Positions 15,403 to 63,268 of a DNA stretch of 64,000 nt are shown here, piece after piece. This DNA comes from Methylocystis sp. Sn-Cys (GTDB lineage: Bacteria; Pseudomonadota; Alphaproteobacteria; Rhizobiales; Beijerinckiaceae). Below the pieces are notes generated by a model. The model saw nothing but the letters and a program-made list of their open reading frames with translations. It was not told the origin of the DNA and made no database searches. Position 1 is the first letter of the stretch; the number at the start of each line of letters is the position of its first letter. Made by a program: the position numbers and the translations under genes. The stretch covers positions 1 to 64,000 of the forward strand of contig NZ_JAERVJ010000001.1 in NCBI RefSeq assembly GCF_016745395.1, read 5' to 3'.

Positions 15403-15487
15403 TCATGATTGCGAGGAGCGGAGCGACGAAGCAATCCAGGGCAGCCACGGCGGCCCTGGATTGCTTCGCTTCGCTCGCAATGACGGG
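15403..15487. repeat. Palindromic repeat, family A copy 1
   Basis: An element of about 85 bp whose arms are the mirror pair ATTGCGAGGAGCG...GAAGCAATCCAGG and CCTGGATTGCTTCG...CTCGCAATGACG. It sits between two convergent genes. Other copies in this window: 19946-20031, 22653-22740, 40870-40953, 45414-45500 (inside cobK), 59209-59292 (inside the copA frame) and 60394-60478. Confidence 0.9.
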
Positions 15488-19945: not shown

Positions 19946-20031
19946 CCGTCATTGCGAGCGTAGCGAAGCAATCCAGGGCCAACCGTAGCCGCTCTGGGTC
20001 GCTTCGTCGCTTTCGCTCCTCGCGATGACGG
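19946..20031. repeat. Palindromic repeat, family A copy 2
   Basis: It reads CGTCATTGCGAGCGTAGCG at the left and GCTCCTCGCGATGACGG at the right. An ATG inside its right arm opens a false N-terminal extension of the following transporter gene. Confidence 0.9.
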
Positions 20032-22652: not shown

Positions 22653-22740
22653 CCCGTCATTGCGAGCGAAGCGAAGCAATCCAGGGCCGTGATGTGGCTC
22701 TGGATTGCTTCGTCGGCTTCGCCTCCTCGCAATGACGGGC
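22653..22740. repeat. Palindromic repeat, family A copy 3
   Basis: A complete copy between two co-directional genes, with arms CGTCATTGCGAGCGAAGCGAAG and its mirror CTTCGCCTCCTCGCAATGACG. Confidence 0.9.
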
Positions 22741-40827: not shown

Positions 40828-40997
40828 CATTCCCGACGCTCGCGCCGTTTGGAGACACAGGGAATCACCGCCGTCATGCGAGGATGCGGAGCCGACGAAG
40901 CACCAGAGCCGCATCGCTGCCCTGGATTGCTTCGCTTCGCTCGCAATGACGGGCTCTGGGCAAAACCTGTCGGGCTTTCAGCCCGCGGGGAATGACA
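40828..40997. repeat. Palindromic repeat, family B copy 2, interrupted
   Basis: The left part (CATTCCCGACGCTCGC) and right part (GTCGGGCTTTCAGCCCGC..GGAATGAC) of a family B element are separated by a complete family A element at 40870-40953. This nested order suggests that A entered B. Confidence 0.75.
40870..40953. repeat. Palindromic repeat, family A copy 4, nested in family B
   Basis: An imperfect copy with CCGTCATGCGAGGATGCGG at the left (bases lost relative to other copies) and GCTTCGCTCGCAATGACGG at the right. Confidence 0.8.
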
Positions 40998-44678: not shown

Positions 44679-45544
44679 GATGCGAGCAGCGCCATGACAG
44701 CGTCGATACTATGCGCGATGGCGGCGCCCGCGCGCGACGGCGGCTGGATCATGACGAGGGGCAGCCCAAGCGCGCGCGCCGCTTCGATCTTGGCGTAGGT
44801 GAGCGCGCCGCCGCTGTTCTTGCTGACGACGACATCGATGCGTTTTTCGCGCATGAGCGCGATTTCATCGGCGCGCGTGAACGGGCCGCGCGCGGACATC
44901 ACCGCGCATTTAGGCGGAAGGTCGCTTGTTTCGGGCGGCTCGATCACACGCAGCAGATACGCATGCTGGGGCGCGGCGCGAAAATCCGCGACGCCCTGCC
45001 GGCCGATAGTGAGAAAGACGCGGCGGGGCGCAGCGCCGAGCGCTTGCGCCGCCGCTGCGTTGCTGTCGACTTCGATCCAGCGATCGCCGGCTATGGGCCG
45101 CCAGGGTTCCCGCGCATAGACGACCAGCGGCAGGCCGAACGAAGCGCAGGCAGCCTGTGCATTGGCGGAGATTTGCGCGGCGAAAGGATGGGTGGCGTCG
45201 ACGACATGCGTGATGCGCTCATCGACTAGATAACGCTTCAGCCCCTCTACCCCGCCAAAGCCGCCGACGCGCGTGGGCAAGGCGAGCGCGATCGGCGCAC
45301 TGGTGCGGCCGGCAAGAGAGGCGATGGCGTCGTCGCGCGCCTCGGCGGCGATGCGCTCGGCGAGCGCGCGCGCTTCGCTCGTTCCGGCCAGCAGAAGGAT
45401 GCGGCGGCGACCTCCGTCATTGCGAGCGAAGCGCGGCAAACCAGGAGCCGCGTCGTGGCTCTGGATTGCTTCGTCGCCTTCGGCTCCTCGCAATGACGGC
45501 GGGGATGTTCTCGGATTGCCGGCCGATTTCACTGCGGCGTTCAC
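44675..45544 (-). CDS. cobK: Precorrin-6A reductase CobK with a repeat-encoded N-terminal extension
   Basis: NAD(P)H-dependent precorrin-6 reductase of the cobalamin pathway. The real domain begins at about residue 46 ([20 protein letters not shown]), continues through [15 protein letters not shown], and ends [26 protein letters not shown], all typical of CobK. Residues 15-44 are translated from a complete family A palindromic element. The frame opens with GTG at 45544, overlapping the stop of the oxidoreductase gene (GTGA), a coupling arrangement that argues this is the native start; a TTG inside the repeat is another option. With the extension the protein is 289 residues. The repeat length (87 bases) keeps the frame. 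Confidence 0.9.
45414..45500. repeat. Palindromic repeat, family A copy 5, inside the cobK frame
   Basis: A complete copy with both arms (CGTCATTGCGAGCG and GCTCCTCGCAATGACGG) lies within the first codons of cobK. Its length is a multiple of three, and the frame used contains no stop. Confidence 0.9.
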
Positions 45545-56734: not shown

Positions 56735-59533
56735 TTGAGCGCCGAGACCACGCGGTTCGACTTCAACGTGCGCGGCATGACTTGCGCCTCCTGCGTCTCG
56801 CATGTCGAGAAGGCGCTCACGGCAACGCCCGGCGTCGCCTCGGCGAGCGTCAATCTTGCGACCGAACGCGCCGATGTCGCGCTGGCGCCGGGCGCCGATC
56901 CGGCGGCGATCGCCAAATCGGTGGCGGACGCCGGATACGAGCCCGTCATCGAGACGATCGAGCTCGGCGTCGGCGGCATGACCTGCGCCTCCTGCGTCGC
57001 CCATGTCGAGAAGGCGCTCAAAAGCGTTCCGGGCGTGTTGGAGGCGAGCGTCAATCTCGCCACCGAGCGCGCGAGCGTGCGCGCCCTCTCCGGCCCCGGC
57101 CTCGCCGAGCGCCTGCGTCGCGCCATTACAGAGGCCGGCTATGAGCCGCGCCGCATCGAGACCGACGCCGGCGCGACCGACCGCGAACGCGCTAGGCGCG
57201 AGGCGGAAATGAAGACGCTGCGCTTCAATCTCATCCTCTCCGCCGTACTGAGCGCGCCGCTGTTCATCGTCGAGATGGGCGGCCACCTTGTGCCCTCCTT
57301 TCATCATTGGACGATGATGACGATCGGCGAGGAGTTGGTGCGCCAATTCTCCTTCCTGCTCGCGACGCTCGTCCTCTTCGGGCCGGGCGCTGTCTTCTTC
57401 GTCAAAGGCGTTCCGGCTCTGCTGCGCGGCGCGCCGGATATGAATGCGCTCGTCGCGGTCGGCACGCTCAGCGCCTATCTCTATTCCTTCGTCGCGACCT
57501 TCCTGCCGCAGCTTCTGCCGGCCGGCGCGGTCTATGTCTATTACGAGGCGGCGGCGGTCATTGTGACGCTCATCCTCTTCGGCCGCTTTCTCGAAGCGCG
57601 CGCCAAGGGCCGCACCTCGGAAGCCATTCGCGCGCTCGCGAAGCTGCAGCCCAAGACCGCCCGCGTCGAACGCGACGGCGAGACAGCGGATGTCGACATC
57701 GACGACGTGCGCGTCGGCGATATTGTGTTAGTGCGGCCGGGCGAACGTATCCCCACCGATGGCGTGGTGACGGCGGGCGCTTCCTATGTCGACGAATCCA
57801 TGGTGACGGGCGAGCCCGCGCCGGTCGCGAAAACCATCGGCGCCACTGTCACGGGCGCGACGGTGAACGGCTCCGGCGCCTTCTCCTTCCGCGCGACGCG
57901 GGTCGGCGCCGATACGGTTCTCGCCGGCATCATCCGAATGGTGGAGCAGGCGCAGGGCGCGAAGCTTCCCATTCAGGCGATGGTCGACCGCGTCACCGCC
58001 GTCTTCGTGCCGGCGATCTTCGCCATCGCTGCGATCACCTTCGTCGTCTGGATGGCGATTGGCCCCGAGCCGCGGCTCACTTATGCGCTGGTCAGCGCCG
58101 TCGCCGTGCTCATCATCGCCTGCCCCTGCGCCATGGGGCTCGCGACGCCGGCCGCCATCATGACCGGCACCGGGCGCGCGGCGGAACTGGGCGTGTTGTT
58201 CCGAAAAGGCGAGGCGCTGCAAACCTTGCAAGACGTGACGCTCATCGCCTTCGACAAGACCGGCACGCTGACCTTCGGCAAGCCGCGCCTTACCGATCTG
58301 ATCCCGACGCCCGGCGAAGACGAAGCGGCGCTGCTGCGGCTAGCGGCGAGCGTCGAGGCGCAGTCGGAGCATCCCGTCGGCGCGGCGATCGTCGCCGCCG
58401 CGAAGGATCGTGGGCTAGCGGTACCAGCGGCCGAGCAGTTCGAGTCTGTTTCAGGCATGGGCGTCGCCGGCCTTGTCGATAAGCGGAAGGTCGTCATTGG
58501 CGCCGCGCGCTATATGGCCTCGCTGGGCCTCGATACGACGGCCTTCGAGACAGACGCCGCCGCGCTCTCCGACGAGGGCAAGACGCCGTTCTATCTCGCG
58601 GTGGATGGCGAGACGCGGGCGATCCTCTGCGTCGCCGACGATTTGAAGCCCACCACCAAGCCCGCGATCGACGCGCTGCACGCCATCGGCGTCAAAACCG
58701 CCATGATCACCGGCGACGAGGCGCGCACCGCCAACGCCATTGCGCGGCGGCTCGGCATCGACGAAGTGATCGCGGGCGTCCTGCCCGACGGCAAGGTCGC
58801 CGCGCTCGAACGGCTGCGCGAGAGCGAAAAGATCGCCTTTGTGGGCGACGGCGTGAACGACGCCCCGGCGCTCGCCGCAGCGGACGCCGGCATCGCCATC
58901 GGCACGGGCACGGACATCGCCATCGAAGCCGCCGACGTCGTGCTGATGTCGGGCGATCTCGCCAAAGTGCCTGCGGCGCTGGCGGTGTCGCGCGCGACGA
59001 TGCGCAACATCAAGCAGAATCTCTTCTGGGCCTTCGGCTATAACGCGCTGCTCGTTCCTGTCGCGGCCGGCGCGCTCTATCCGGTGAATGGCGTGCAGCT
59101 CTCGCCCATGCTCGGCGCCGGCGCCATGGCGCTTTCGAGCGTTTTTGTGCTGACCAATGCGCTACGTCTGCGCAGGTTACAGCCGCCGGTCATCGCAGAG
59201 GCGCCTCCCCGTCATCGCGAGGAGCGCAGCGACGAAGCGACCCAGGAGGCTCATCACGGCTCTGGATTGCTTCGCTCCGCTCGCAATGACGAGAGCGCCT
59301 CATTAAACACCAATCAGAAGGAGGAAAGAATGACCACTTTCAATGTGCAAGACATGACCTGCAACATGTGCGTCAAGCATGTCACCAAAGCGGTGCAGGC
59401 GGTCGAGCCCGGCGCGGATGTGAAGGTCGATCTCGCCAGCGGCAGGGTCGACGTCTCGCCGACGCCGAAGGACCCCGAGGCGCTGGCGAAGGCCATCACA
59501 GACGCCGGCTACCCGGCGCAAGTCGCGGCCTGA
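56735..59533 (+). CDS. copA: Copper-transporting P1B-type ATPase, read through into a CopZ-like domain
   Basis: One frame of 932 residues. Residues 1-815 are a complete Cu+ exporting ATPase: two N-terminal HMA domains with GMTCASC (C17/C20 and C84/C87), the phosphatase motif VTGEP (358-361 region), the membrane copper site CPC (463-465), the phosphorylated D507 in DKTGT, and [10 protein letters not shown]. The start is TTG with GGAGGA four bases upstream. After the last helix ([10 protein letters not shown]) the frame runs without a stop through a family A palindrome (about residues 825-852) and into a third HMA domain (866-932, MTCNMC with C876/C879) that has its own ribosome site and ATG. 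So both a long fusion and a separate small chaperone may be made. Confidence 0.93.
59209..59292. repeat. Palindromic repeat, family A copy 6, inside the copA frame
   Basis: A full copy with CGTCATCGCGAGGAGCGC at the left and GCTCCGCTCGCAATGACG at the right. It is 84 bases long (28 codons) and open in the copA frame. It seems to have replaced or displaced the original stop codon of copA. Confidence 0.9.
59330..59533 (+). CDS. CopZ-like copper chaperone (internal start)
   Basis: A 67-residue heavy-metal-associated domain that would carry Cu+ in the cytosol to the ATPase. The CxxC metal site is MTCNMC (C11, C14), and the ferredoxin-like fold ends [10 protein letters not shown] strong ribosome site, AGGAGGAAAG, stands just before the ATG, which shows that this is, or was, an independent gene. 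It is in the same frame as copA and shares its stop codon with the readthrough product. Confidence 0.85.
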
Positions 59534-59575: not shown

Positions 59576-60277
59576 ATGCCGCGTTCGATATTTCGAACAA
59601 AAGCGGATATTATGCCGGCCGACTCAAAACAGGGAGCCGGCCGGGGCGGCGTGAACGCAATGGGCGTCGAAGGGAAAGAAAAACACAAGATTCTCGAAGC
59701 GGGCGCGCTGGCGCTCTCGGGTCAGCTCGGCGCCACCGTCCAGCGGCTACGCAAGGCCTATAATCTCTCGCTCTCGGAATTGTCTCAGCAGTCGGGCGTC
59801 GCCAAGTCGATCATCAGCCAGATCGAGCGAAACGAGACGAACCCGACGCTCGCCACCATCTGGCGTCTGGCGCAGGCGCTCGACGTCTCGATCGAGCGCG
59901 TGCTTCAAACGACGGAAGACGAGCCTTTCCTCGAGAAAACCAGCAAAGCCGATACGCCGATCCTCGTCTCCGACGACGGCAAATGCCGATTGGCGATCAT
60001 CGGCTGGATCAAGACGGTCGAATGGCTGCAATCCTACGAGCTCTCCGCCGATCCGGGCGGCGCGCTCGAATCGGACGCCCATCAGCGCGGCTCGGTCGAA
60101 AGCCTCTCGGTGCGCGAAGGCGAGCTGGAGGTGGAGGTCGCCGGCGTCAAGGAGACGGTGAAGGCCGGCGAGACGCTGCGCTATCGCTGCGACCGTCCGC
60201 ACATCATCCGCAACATCGGCAAGGCGCAGGCGCAGGCGACCATGGTGTGCATTCTGAAAGCAGCGGTGATGGAGTAA
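59576..60277 (+). CDS. XRE-family regulator with C-terminal cupin domain
   Basis: A DNA-binding regulator of 233 residues in the longest frame. HTH_3 domain (about 50-110): LGATVQRLRKAYNLSLSELSQQSG, then VAKSIISQIERNETNPTLATIWRLAQAL. The C-terminal cupin (about 165-228) has the small-barrel pattern with VREGELEVEV and LRYRCDRPHIIRN. XRE-cupin proteins bind a small ligand and often control polyamine, amino-acid or envelope genes. The start is uncertain: ATG 59576, 59612 or a later GTG/ATG near 59650. It lies 42 bases after the CopZ stop; it is not a typical copper regulator (CueR/CsoR). Confidence 0.87.
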   Translation: MPRSIFRTKADIMPADSKQGAGRGGVNAMGVEGKEKHKILEAGALALSGQLGATVQRLRKAYNLSLSELSQQSGVAKSIISQIERNETNPTLATIWRLAQALDVSIERVLQTTEDEPFLEKTSKADTPILVSDDGKCRLAIIGWIKTVEWLQSYELSADPGGALESDAHQRGSVESLSVREGELEVEVAGVKETVKAGETLRYRCDRPHIIRNIGKAQAQATMVCILKAAVME

Positions 60278-60300
60278 TATGGAAGTGCTTGATTGATCTG

Positions 60301-60393: not shown

Positions 60394-60478
60394 CCGTCAT
60401 TGCGAGGAGCGTAGCGACGAAGCAATCCAGAACAGCTATTGCGGCCCTGGATTGCTTCGCTACGCTCGCAATGACGGG
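60394..60478. repeat. Palindromic repeat, family A copy 7
   Basis: A complete copy, CGTCATTGCGAGGAGCG to CTACGCTCGCAATGACG, flanked on both sides by family B sequence. Confidence 0.9.
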
Positions 60479-60631: not shown

Positions 60632-61651
60632 TCATTCCTTCTTCAAAATGGCGACGATCTGCCGACTGGTGGGGTCGACGACGCCGATCCGTTGTCCCGA
60701 GACGATGAATCGATAGCCGCGCAATACCGCCTCGCGCGCGACCAGCCGGCGCGGGAAAATGGCGAGTCGGACGCCACGCGGAACGATAGCTCCGGCGGCG
60801 ATGGCGAAAGACGCGTCTTTGACGCGCGCCGATCGCCAATCGCCGACAGTCGAAAAAATCTCCTGCTCCCGCTCCGGAGAAATCCCAAGGGATTGCCGGG
60901 CGTCGCCTGACGCCTCCTGATTGTTGCTATCGCTCGCAACGATGGCAGGCTTTTCCCTTGGTATTTCCCGAAAATCGGCGGGCGGAGGGAGCGGCGCCTC
61001 CGCTCTCTGGCGATCGAGCGCGGCCATTTGAGCCGGCGGCGAAGCGGGGGAATGCCGACTGAGCTTGGGCGACACGAAGCTCGCCAAATAGGCCGCCACG
61101 GCAAGAGCGGAAAGCTGGGCGGCGACGACGCCGAATTGCAGGACCGGCCCGTGACGGTCCTTTCCTACCGGCTCGGGCGCTGAAACTTCTTCGACGAGCG
61201 CCTGACGCGTCTGCGCCGCGCGCTTTGCGGTCTTCTGGGTCTCCGCCGCCGCGGCGGCGAAAGCGATCAGCGAATCCCGCGACGCCTGCTTTCCGGCATC
61301 CGCAACGCGACCATCGAAGGTCAGATTGTCATTTATAGACCGCACGCAGATTCGCCGGCGCATGAGATCGCGGATCGCGTCGGTTATTTCAGCGTAGCTT
61401 TCGCCGAGGCAGCCGACTCCGCTGACGACGAGCGTGTCTCCCGCTTTGAGCTTGTCGTAGACAGGACGGCGCTCCGTGGGGACGTCCGCCTCCTGCTCGG
61501 TGAAAGCCTGGTCGATCGCAAGGCCCACGGCTTCGGCGCGACGCCATTGCGTCGCAAGCGATTGTCGCGATTGAGACGCGGGCGCGTCGTAAAGATAGGT
61601 GGTCACATCCGGTCCATGCGCGTCGGGAAGCAAGACACATATTGTGCGCAT
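60632..61651 (-). CDS. Degenerate serine-recombinase domain - TM - DUF1236-like protein
   Basis: A 339-residue protein with an unusual order of parts. Residues about 15-115 resemble the catalytic domain of serine recombinases: a first strand and helix (TTYLYDAPASQSRQSLATQ), an acidic strand, GDTLVVSGVGCLGESYAEI and the closing RRRICVRSINDNL. The catalytic motif YxRVSTxxQ reads YLYDAPASQ and the Arg pair normally in 'DRLGRS' is GCLGES, so it should be inactive. No DNA-binding recombinase domain or HTH follows. A single membrane segment (about 172-194) leads to a Pro-rich linker and a DUF1236-like domain (about 285-338) with VPRGVRLAIFP, RGYRFIVSGQ and VDPTSRQIVAIL. Expected topology: N-terminus in the cytosol, DUF1236 in the periplasm. 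Function unknown. Confidence 0.75.
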   Translation of the reverse strand: MRTICVLLPDAHGPDVTTYLYDAPASQSRQSLATQWRRAEAVGLAIDQAFTEQEADVPTERRPVYDKLKAGDTLVVSGVGCLGESYAEITDAIRDLMRRRICVRSINDNLTFDGRVADAGKQASRDSLIAFAAAAAETQKTAKRAAQTRQALVEEVSAPEPVGKDRHGPVLQFGVVAAQLSALAVAAYLASFVSPKLSRHSPASPPAQMAALDRQRAEAPLPPPADFREIPREKPAIVASDSNNQEASGDARQSLGISPEREQEIFSTVGDWRSARVKDASFAIAAGAIVPRGVRLAIFPRRLVAREAVLRGYRFIVSGQRIGVVDPTSRQIVAILKKE

Positions 61652-61803
61652 GGAGCGTTTGGCAGCTCCGTATTACTCCCGCAGATCGCCTGAACTCGCA
61701 GACGCCCCCTACGGACCGAAAAAATACTCCTGAAACCCCGATATTTCTGGGCCGGCGCGCTTGCGCGGGCGGCCACCCACAGGCCGCCTGCGCACGCATC
61801 CCA

Positions 61804-62283
61804 TTAGGACGAAAGCCCGCCCATATGCTTCTGGCTGTAGAGCTGCACGCCGAGCTGCCGGATCAGCTCCTGCTGGGTCTCGAGGAAGTCGATATGTCCT
61901 TCCTCGCTCTTGATGATGCTCTCGAAAAGCTCCATCGACACGCGGTCGTCCACGGAGTCGCAATAAACGGCGGCCTCTATGTACAGCTTGCGAGCGTCCG
62001 ACTCGGTGGCGAGATCGGCGGCGATGATCTCCTCGACGGTCTGGCCGATGCGCAGCGGGTCGAGCACCTGCATATTCGGGAAGCCTTCGAGGAAAAGGAT
62101 GCGCTTTGTGAAATGATCGGCGTGATACATCTCCTCGATCGATTCCTTACGCCATTTCTCGGCCAGCTCCTTGAAACCCCAATTGTCGAAAATGCGATAA
62201 TGCAGCCAATATTGGTTGACCGCCGTCAGCTCGGCGCGAAGCCCGCGATTGAGATATTCGATAACCTTCGCGTCGCCGCGCAT
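61804..62283 (-). CDS. bfr: Bacterioferritin
   Basis: A 159-residue iron-storage subunit of the haem-containing 24-mer. All ferroxidase ligands are in the standard positions (E18, E51, H54, E94, E127, H130), and M52, the haem ligand, is present. ATG at 62283 is chosen, with AAGGGA six bases before it; the frame extends to 62442 through the bfd gene, which is rejected. It lies 28 bases after bfd and is surely co-transcribed. The C-terminal GLSS replaces the shorter tail of the E. coli protein. Confidence 0.97.
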   Translation of the reverse strand: MRGDAKVIEYLNRGLRAELTAVNQYWLHYRIFDNWGFKELAEKWRKESIEEMYHADHFTKRILFLEGFPNMQVLDPLRIGQTVEEIIAADLATESDARKLYIEAAVYCDSVDDRVSMELFESIIKSEEGHIDFLETQQELIRQLGVQLYSQKHMGGLSS

Positions 62284-62311
62284 GCGCAATCCCTTTCCAT
62301 GTTTCTTAAAC

Positions 62312-62548
62312 TCACGCCGCCAAACCGTCGGCGCGGCAGCTATCACAATCGCTCGTTCCGCGACATTCGTCCAGTCTCGCCGTGGCGTGCTGATCGACAA
62401 GCGCGACGATGCTGCGCACGCAGCGTCCGCATTTCGCCTCACAGCCCATGCTGCGGAATACCGCCCCCACGGAGGGACGATCGGCGCGCGCGCTGAGAGA
62501 TTCGCGCACGTCGCGGTCGGAGAGGACGTTGCAGGAGCAAACGATCAT
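62312..62548 (-). CDS. bfd: Bacterioferritin-associated ferredoxin
   Basis: A 78-residue [2Fe-2S] protein that reduces the bacterioferritin core to release iron. N-terminal MIVCSCN (C4, C6) and KCGRC (C40, C43) are the cluster ligands. It is placed immediately upstream of bfr, the usual arrangement. The C-terminal tail (DQHATARLDECRGTSD...) has extra cysteines outside the cluster motif. The 250 bases upstream (62549-62799) contain an AT-rich stretch that should hold the promoter, but no Irr or Fur box could be assigned with confidence. Confidence 0.93.
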   Translation of the reverse strand: MIVCSCNVLSDRDVRESLSARADRPSVGAVFRSMGCEAKCGRCVRSIVALVDQHATARLDECRGTSDCDSCRADGLAA

Positions 62549-62799: not shown

Positions 62800-63150
62800 T
62801 CAGTAGCCCGGCCCCCAGGGACGCGGATGCGGGCCGTAGACCGGGGGGCGCGGGCGCGGCCCATAGCCGTAGACCGGGGGACGCGGACGCGGTCCATAGC
62901 CATAGACTGGAGGACGCGGACGCGGTCCATAGCCGTAGACAACCGGGGGGCGCGGGCGCCAGCCATAACCATAACCCGGTCCGCCAGGGCGGCAGCCATA
63001 GGGCCCACACCAAACCTTTTCGACCTTTGGCCCGCCGCCGACGGCGACGCCAGGGTCCAGGGCCGGCATGGCCTGAGCCGACGAAAGGCCGAAGGCCAGC
63101 CCGCCGGCGACGGCCAGTCCAGCGAGCGTTTTGACGGTAACCAATTTCAT
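62800..63150 (-). CDS. Secreted Pro/Arg/Gly/Tyr-rich repeat protein
   Basis: A 116-residue exported protein: MKLVTVKTLAGLAVAGG signal peptide (cleavage near AQA-MPAL), a short spacer with WCGPYGC, then about four tandem copies of an 11-residue unit of the type VYGYGPRPRPP, encoded by near-identical 33-base DNA repeats, ending HPRPWGPGY. The ATG at 63150 has AGGAG eight bases upstream. Small secreted 'GPGPRPP' proteins of this kind are common in Hyphomicrobiales and have no known function. It ends with a strong terminator. Confidence 0.85.
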   Translation of the reverse strand: MKLVTVKTLAGLAVAGGLAFGLSSAQAMPALDPGVAVGGGPKVEKVWCGPYGCRPGGPGYGYGWRPRPPVVYGYGPRPRPPVYGYGPRPRPPVYGYGPRPRPPVYGPHPRPWGPGY

Positions 63151-63268
63151 GAGGCATTCTCCTGGAGCCAAAAGGGCGCCTCGCCCAGTCTAAGGTGGGG
63201 GAGAGTGGCGCAGCGGTCTTGAACTAAGCATTAAGCGGCCGTTCAGCAAGGATTCAGAAAGGCGCTCC

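Follow-up and report, generated by a model that had tools for sequence, protein, structure and literature searches.

DUF1236 (PF06823) is a domain of unknown function carried by exported proteins of Hyphomicrobiales. Among the known systems closest to the protein described here is the C-terminal domain of CigR (PDB 4ew5), which we take to be of the RcnB type; RcnB is reportedly able to bind metal. A Rhizobium DUF1236 gene is up about 8-fold under aluminium, according to the available part of one report (PMC8909678). The small serine recombinases (PF00239) include the Tn3/gamma-delta resolvase, Sin and Hin. In active resolvases the dimer is held by contacts of helix E, whose packing changes in the active tetramer, as stated in the available parts of two papers (PMC4513852, PMC9943657). 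Mobile-element recombinases have been recruited by cells many times, and the cases covered in the available portion of one account keep their DNA chemistry (PMC8987985). Here we describe a gene that joins the two families. It lies in the first 64,000 nucleotides of contig NZ_JAERVJ010000001.1 of the methanotroph Methylocystis sp. Sn-Cys, a stretch referred to below as the window. Its product, the fusion protein, has kept the recombinase fold, has lost active-site residues, contains no detected DNA-binding domain and has a predicted membrane helix attached to the recombinase part. By residue tests on the sequence it is not a working serine recombinase. On balance, its N-terminal recombinase-like domain (N-domain) probably acts as a cytosolic module that pairs two periplasmic DUF1236 domains, a role that we infer together with the pairing and the topology.

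The fusion gene and the parts of its product

The open reading frame (ORF) at 60632-61651 of the minus strand, 339 residues long, is a real frame. Its start is most likely the GTG at 61606, because this codon, at the beginning of VTTYLY, is kept in 6/6 genome copies of the gene and no conservation is seen in the 15 residues ahead of it. The gene as corrected from these alignments spans 60632-61606 and encodes 324 residues, and residues are counted from this GTG unless the 339-residue form is named. Searches of 5.8 billion proteins returned 23 full-length fusion proteins (the window's included) and one fragment. Their deposited names are hypothetical protein, DUF1236 protein and DNA invertase Pin-like recombinase, so annotation overlooks or misreads the resolvase-DUF1236 fusion.

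Pfam places the Resolvase N-terminal domain at residues 29-150 of the 339-residue form (E 1.8e-5, 25.3 bits against a cut-off of 23.3), and phmmer against PDB sequences finds gamma-delta resolvase over residues 23-151 (E 2.5e-6). The resemblance to serine recombinases is therefore real. A preliminary description of this DNA had proposed a serine-recombinase fold at the N-terminus, and these matches bear it out: Pfam and the structure model both indicate the catalytic-domain fold with the long helix E of small serine recombinases. The model, which begins one residue later, places helix E at 103-141.

Active-site residues were counted in the 23 full-length fusion proteins and in 8 active relatives, in what we take to be gamma-delta numbering (Asp67, Arg68, Arg71, Arg8, Ser10 and so on). 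All tested catalytic residues are retained in 8/8 active relatives. Among the fusion proteins, Asp67 has become Gly in 23/23, Arg68 is lost in 23/23 and Arg71 in 22/23, as expected from the earlier claim that the Arg pair of the second active-site motif had been replaced. The Ser39 column is a gap in all 23 and the Arg8 column holds Arg in none. Gly58, Asp59, Gly70 and the Phe and Gly of FDG are retained in 23/23. The window protein contains the motifs YLYDAPASQ and GCLGES as they had been quoted, with Ala in place of Ser10. Replacement of the nucleophile Ser thus holds for the window protein and not family-wide, since the Ser10 column has Ser in 3/23 and a shifted R-x-S (YGDR-x-S), one residue late, occurs in 10/23. 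The stretch that joins strand 1 to helix B is missing from P0011 and P0012, which retain strand 3 to helix E.

The fetched loci supplied a control of 51 recombinase frames from outside the family, limited to those in the returned loci whose second motif could be recognised and hence no census. Y-x-R-x-S is present in 51/51 of them, D-R-L-G in 50/51 and S-R-L-G in 1, and their best 19-residue hydropathy is at most 1.53; L029 (plus strand), an antisense false match, was excluded. No other dead or membrane-tied recombinase of the order appeared among the best matches fetched. Pfam found only Resolvase and DUF1236 among the 24 members and no match to a helix-turn-helix (HTH) family, in line with the earlier statement that an HTH or recombinase C-terminal domain is lacking.

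The window protein has one 19-residue segment with a mean hydropathy of 1.96. One such stretch, at 1.6-2.5, is found in 22/23 fusion proteins; the 0.94 of P0012 reflects a scan begun at residue 131, within its hydrophobic stretch. The model places a helix at 153-177, and the single membrane-spanning helix claimed before is also what hydropathy and the model predict. The mean majority of the membrane-part columns is 0.68, on par with the folded parts (0.56-0.71), while the juxtamembrane stretch and the linker have 0.36 and 0.37. Gln164 is present in 23/23 and Gln157, seven residues earlier, in 22/23 (179 and 172 of the 339-residue form). Position 163 is Ala or Gly in 21/23, 167 is Ala in 19/23 and 171 is Ala in 18/23 (178, 182 and 186 of the 339-residue form). 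Such a spacing of Gln and small residues favours the association of helices. The strongly hydrophobic stretch is internal only: the N-terminal signal peptide of exported DUF1236 proteins is absent, and the fusion protein opens with the recombinase strand VTTYLY. Because there is no N-terminal signal and other DUF1236 proteins are exported, the N-terminus would lie inside and the C-terminus outside.

The C-terminal domain had been called DUF1236-like, and Pfam places it in DUF1236 at residues 281-336 of the 339-residue form (E 9.8e-10, 38.5 bits against a curated cut-off of 32.4); 23/24 members match at E <= 0.01. The motif WRSA is found in 23/23 DUF1236 domains of the fusion family and in 0/26 other DUF1236 domains. 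The columns conserved in at least 21/23 contain no His or Cys and one Asp. A strict signal-peptide pattern occurs in 11/17 frames of other DUF1236 proteins. The only other DUF1236 protein encoded in the window's genome (L002, G000:C18:186650-187288) has two DUF1236 domains after a long low-complexity stretch.

Distribution, origin and selection

Every named source organism of a fusion protein is a Methylocystis, M. parvus and M. echinoides among them, and the full architecture is present in 6/39 genomes of the genus. With at most 5 candidates scored per genome, it was found in 6/397 genomes drawn from the family, all Methylocystis, and in 1/397 drawn from the order, the window's own. A scan of genome contigs returned one locus, on a contig as long as that of the G015 copy. 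The phage collection held no match to the fusion protein; the plasmid collection gave 44 matching records, none covering 80% of the query, and the 20 matches listed cover 29-35%. Cargo of a phage or plasmid was rejected on these results.

In a tree of 87 rows, 24 N-domains fall on one side of one branch (99 by the Shimodaira-Hasegawa-like approximate likelihood ratio test, SH-aLRT), and 23 DUF1236 domains do so among 49 (SH-aLRT 95); both trees come from quick searches, supported by SH-aLRT alone, and carried a program warning about long branches. P0013 (248 residues, without DUF1236) stands outside the counts of 23 and inside the N-domain tree. Duplicates and matches under 55 residues were removed before the DUF1236 tree was made. 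Absence of other families from the VIA-align lists excludes nothing. The N- and C-terminal distances correlate (r 0.84, with 0/2000 permutations as high). Since both trees set the family on one side of one branch, a single fusion event is the simplest reading, and the fusion likely arose once.

The ratio of non-synonymous to synonymous rates (dN/dS) is mostly low in both halves of the fusion protein. Between the window's genome (G000) and G022 the values are 0.20 (N-domain), 0.17 (helix E), 0.24 (membrane part), 0.31 (linker) and 0.16 (DUF1236). Synonymous sites have reached saturation in several of the distant pairs. The preliminary description had named, as a finding that would speak against it, relatives without the N-domain together with a local in-frame accident here. 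An accident is countered by the conservation of the fusion in 23 full-length proteins. DUF1236 relatives without the N-domain do exist, for example L014, which has 36% identity over residues 235-336 and a signal-peptide-like start of its own, but the trees group the fusion family apart on one side of a branch.

Possible roles of the fusion protein

The pairing role is favoured because helix E and its supporting strands are kept, active-site residues are lost, no HTH is found and the membrane helix is conserved. Mean majority is 0.66 in helix E and 0.71 in the preceding strands, against 0.56 in the former active-site part. The dead recombinase domain would pair in the cytosol via helix E, through which active resolvases form dimers. 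The membrane helices would also pair, through the invariant Gln and three positions, spaced by four, that hold mostly small residues. Two DUF1236 domains would thereby be held together in the periplasm, where the pair may have a structural or envelope-stress role. The protein probably originated from the joining of a resolvase frame to a DUF1236 gene, and the signal peptide of that gene may have turned into the anchor inside the fusion protein.

Several observations weigh against this picture of a conserved pairing module of single origin. No full-length copy is present in 33/39 genomes of the genus, and long stem branches weaken the case for one origin. The charges flanking the membrane helix are about equal on both sides and leave the topology undecided. 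Between G007 and G015 dN/dS reaches 0.61 in the N-domain, 0.38 in helix E, 0.89 in the membrane part, 0.59 in the linker and 0.37 in DUF1236, and G000 and G006 differ in DUF1236 by 4.5 non-synonymous and 0.5 synonymous changes, too few to judge. The active site has decayed unevenly: besides the shifted R-x-S, Gln14 is retained in 15/23 and P0025 retains Arg71. Arg in the Arg45 column of 7/23 also blurs the picture of clean loss.

An unlikely alternative is a mere anchor, in which the recombinase part keeps the N-terminus cytosolic and stabilises the protein, nothing pairs and DUF1236 works alone. In its favour, DUF1236 proteins elsewhere are exported without a recombinase part, and P0011 and P0012 tolerate the loss of a large piece of the N-domain. 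Against it, the constraint on the N-domain is about that on DUF1236, and conservation is higher in helix E and its preceding strands than in the former active-site part. Similarly improbable is a transmembrane sensor, in which an envelope signal is bound by DUF1236 and a partner in the cytosol is altered through a rearrangement of the dead-recombinase dimer, like that of active resolvases from dimer to tetramer. The conserved membrane helix and domains, the family-specific WRSA and the induction of the Rhizobium gene by aluminium fit such a sensor, whereas Pfam finds no signalling output domain and the conserved DUF1236 columns have no His or Cys and one Asp. Metal sensing through conserved ligands was considered and is unsupported, as these columns, conserved in at least 21/23, have no His or Cys. 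The gene also has no conserved neighbour in four different settings across six genomes. In G000, G006 and G022 it has an HTH/cupin regulator on one side and bfr on the other; in G003, G007 and G015 it is elsewhere, beside different genes, and bfr is at another place or on a different contig; in G002 and G035 the regulator adjoins bfr and the gene is missing. Gene neighbourhood thus gives a signalling role no support, and the gene's patchy presence, with no constant partner, speaks against a signalling pair bound in an operon. The bfr/bfd, repeat-rich setting noted earlier is found in the window, and the bfr/bfd part in 3/6 genomes only; an operon with bfr/bfd as a general link was rejected on this count and on the empty spot in G002 and G035. 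We also doubt, to much the same degree, that a domesticated mobile-element recombinase, its dimer deprived of catalysis and DNA binding, is the switch on the cytosolic side of a transmembrane receptor, reporting the state of the paired DUF1236 domains. If so, it would define a receptor class that signals through a helix-E rearrangement whose former use was strand exchange.

A recombination inhibitor, which would pair with active resolvases and either recruit them to the membrane or poison them, could make use of the retained dimer element, but it is very improbable: the sole other PF00239 protein of the window's genome (L003) is on a separate branch with distant resolvases, and the idea was rejected for want of a close active partner there. 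Least credible is a local in-frame accident or decaying pseudogene. Dispersed repeats adjoin the gene, which is absent from the corresponding spot in G002 and G035, but 23 full-length proteins in several settings, mostly low dN/dS and the correlated divergence of the N- and C-terminal parts led us to reject it.

Gene setting and comparison with known systems

Table 1. Positions of the fusion gene, its parts and its surroundings in the window
Feature	Positions	Strand	Basis
Fusion gene, probable GTG start at 61606, 324 residues, stop included	60632..61606	-	ORF, shared GTG, unconserved upstream codons
Recombinase-like globular part, residues 1-99	61310..61606	-	Pfam, phmmer, structure model
GCLGE where active relatives have D-R-L-G-R (Asp67, Arg68, Arg71 replaced)	61400..61414	-	Alignment
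Long helix E, residues 104-142 (dimer-forming in active resolvases)	61181..61297	-	Model; role from literature
Predicted membrane helix, residues 154-178, with Gln157 and invariant Gln164	61073..61147	-	Model, hydropathy, conservation
Low-confidence Pro/Ala-rich linker, residues 179-240	60887..61072	-	Model, conservation
DUF1236 domain, residues 241-324, with WRSA motif of the fusion family	60635..60886	-	Pfam, model, alignment
Bacterioferritin-like neighbour bfr, context only	61804..62289	-	Adjacent in 3/6 genomes
BFD-like [2Fe-2S] neighbour bfd, context only	62312..62548	-	ORF, Pfam
HTH and cupin regulator on the other flank, context only	59576..60277	+	ORF, Pfam
84-nt palindromic dispersed repeat, context only	60394..60477	.	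Repeat scan

The repeat has seven copies in the window (15408-15486, 19946-20031, 22654-22738, 40871-40952, 45414-45499, 59209-59291 and 60394-60477), 84-100% identical to the one beside the fusion gene, and further copies lie in the G002 and G006 loci. An 18-nt inverted repeat (60271-60288 and 61662-61679, 83% complementary) flanks the gene at a distance of 1373 nt and may be chance or a trace of arrival. A heavy-metal P-type ATPase frame (56735-59533, plus strand) stays open through the repeat at 59209-59291 into a third heavy-metal-associated (HMA, CopZ-like) domain. The joined frame is also present in G022 (L006) and may have arisen through the repeat, as two genes fused into one. A short frame at 62800-63171 on the minus strand has a signal-peptide-like start, a repeated Gly/Tyr/Pro/Arg tail (GPRPRPPVYGY) and no Pfam match.

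The open-access literature searched contained no paper joining DUF1236 with a resolvase, none on a resolvase pseudoenzyme and none on a Methylocystis serine recombinase and the membrane; nothing in it, partly at the level of titles and abstract openings, reads as an inactive membrane-bound serine recombinase. Judged by sequence, each half of the fusion protein belongs to a known family and the combination is new. Use of a dead recombinase as a signalling module would, if true, be of a new kind. If the N-domain pairs at the membrane, an enzyme of mobile elements has been turned into a module of membrane-protein assembly, and DUF1236 gains a testable handle.

The fusion protein shares the catalytic-domain fold of the small serine recombinases. 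Unlike them, it is without Asp67, Arg68 and, in 22/23, Arg71, has no Arg at position 8, and carries a hydrophobic helix and DUF1236 with no HTH match. With the exported DUF1236 proteins of Hyphomicrobiales it shares a DUF1236 domain above the Pfam cut-off. Those proteins have signal-peptide-like starts (11/17) and lack WRSA, whereas the fusion protein has a recombinase domain, an internal predicted membrane helix and the WRSA motif of its family.
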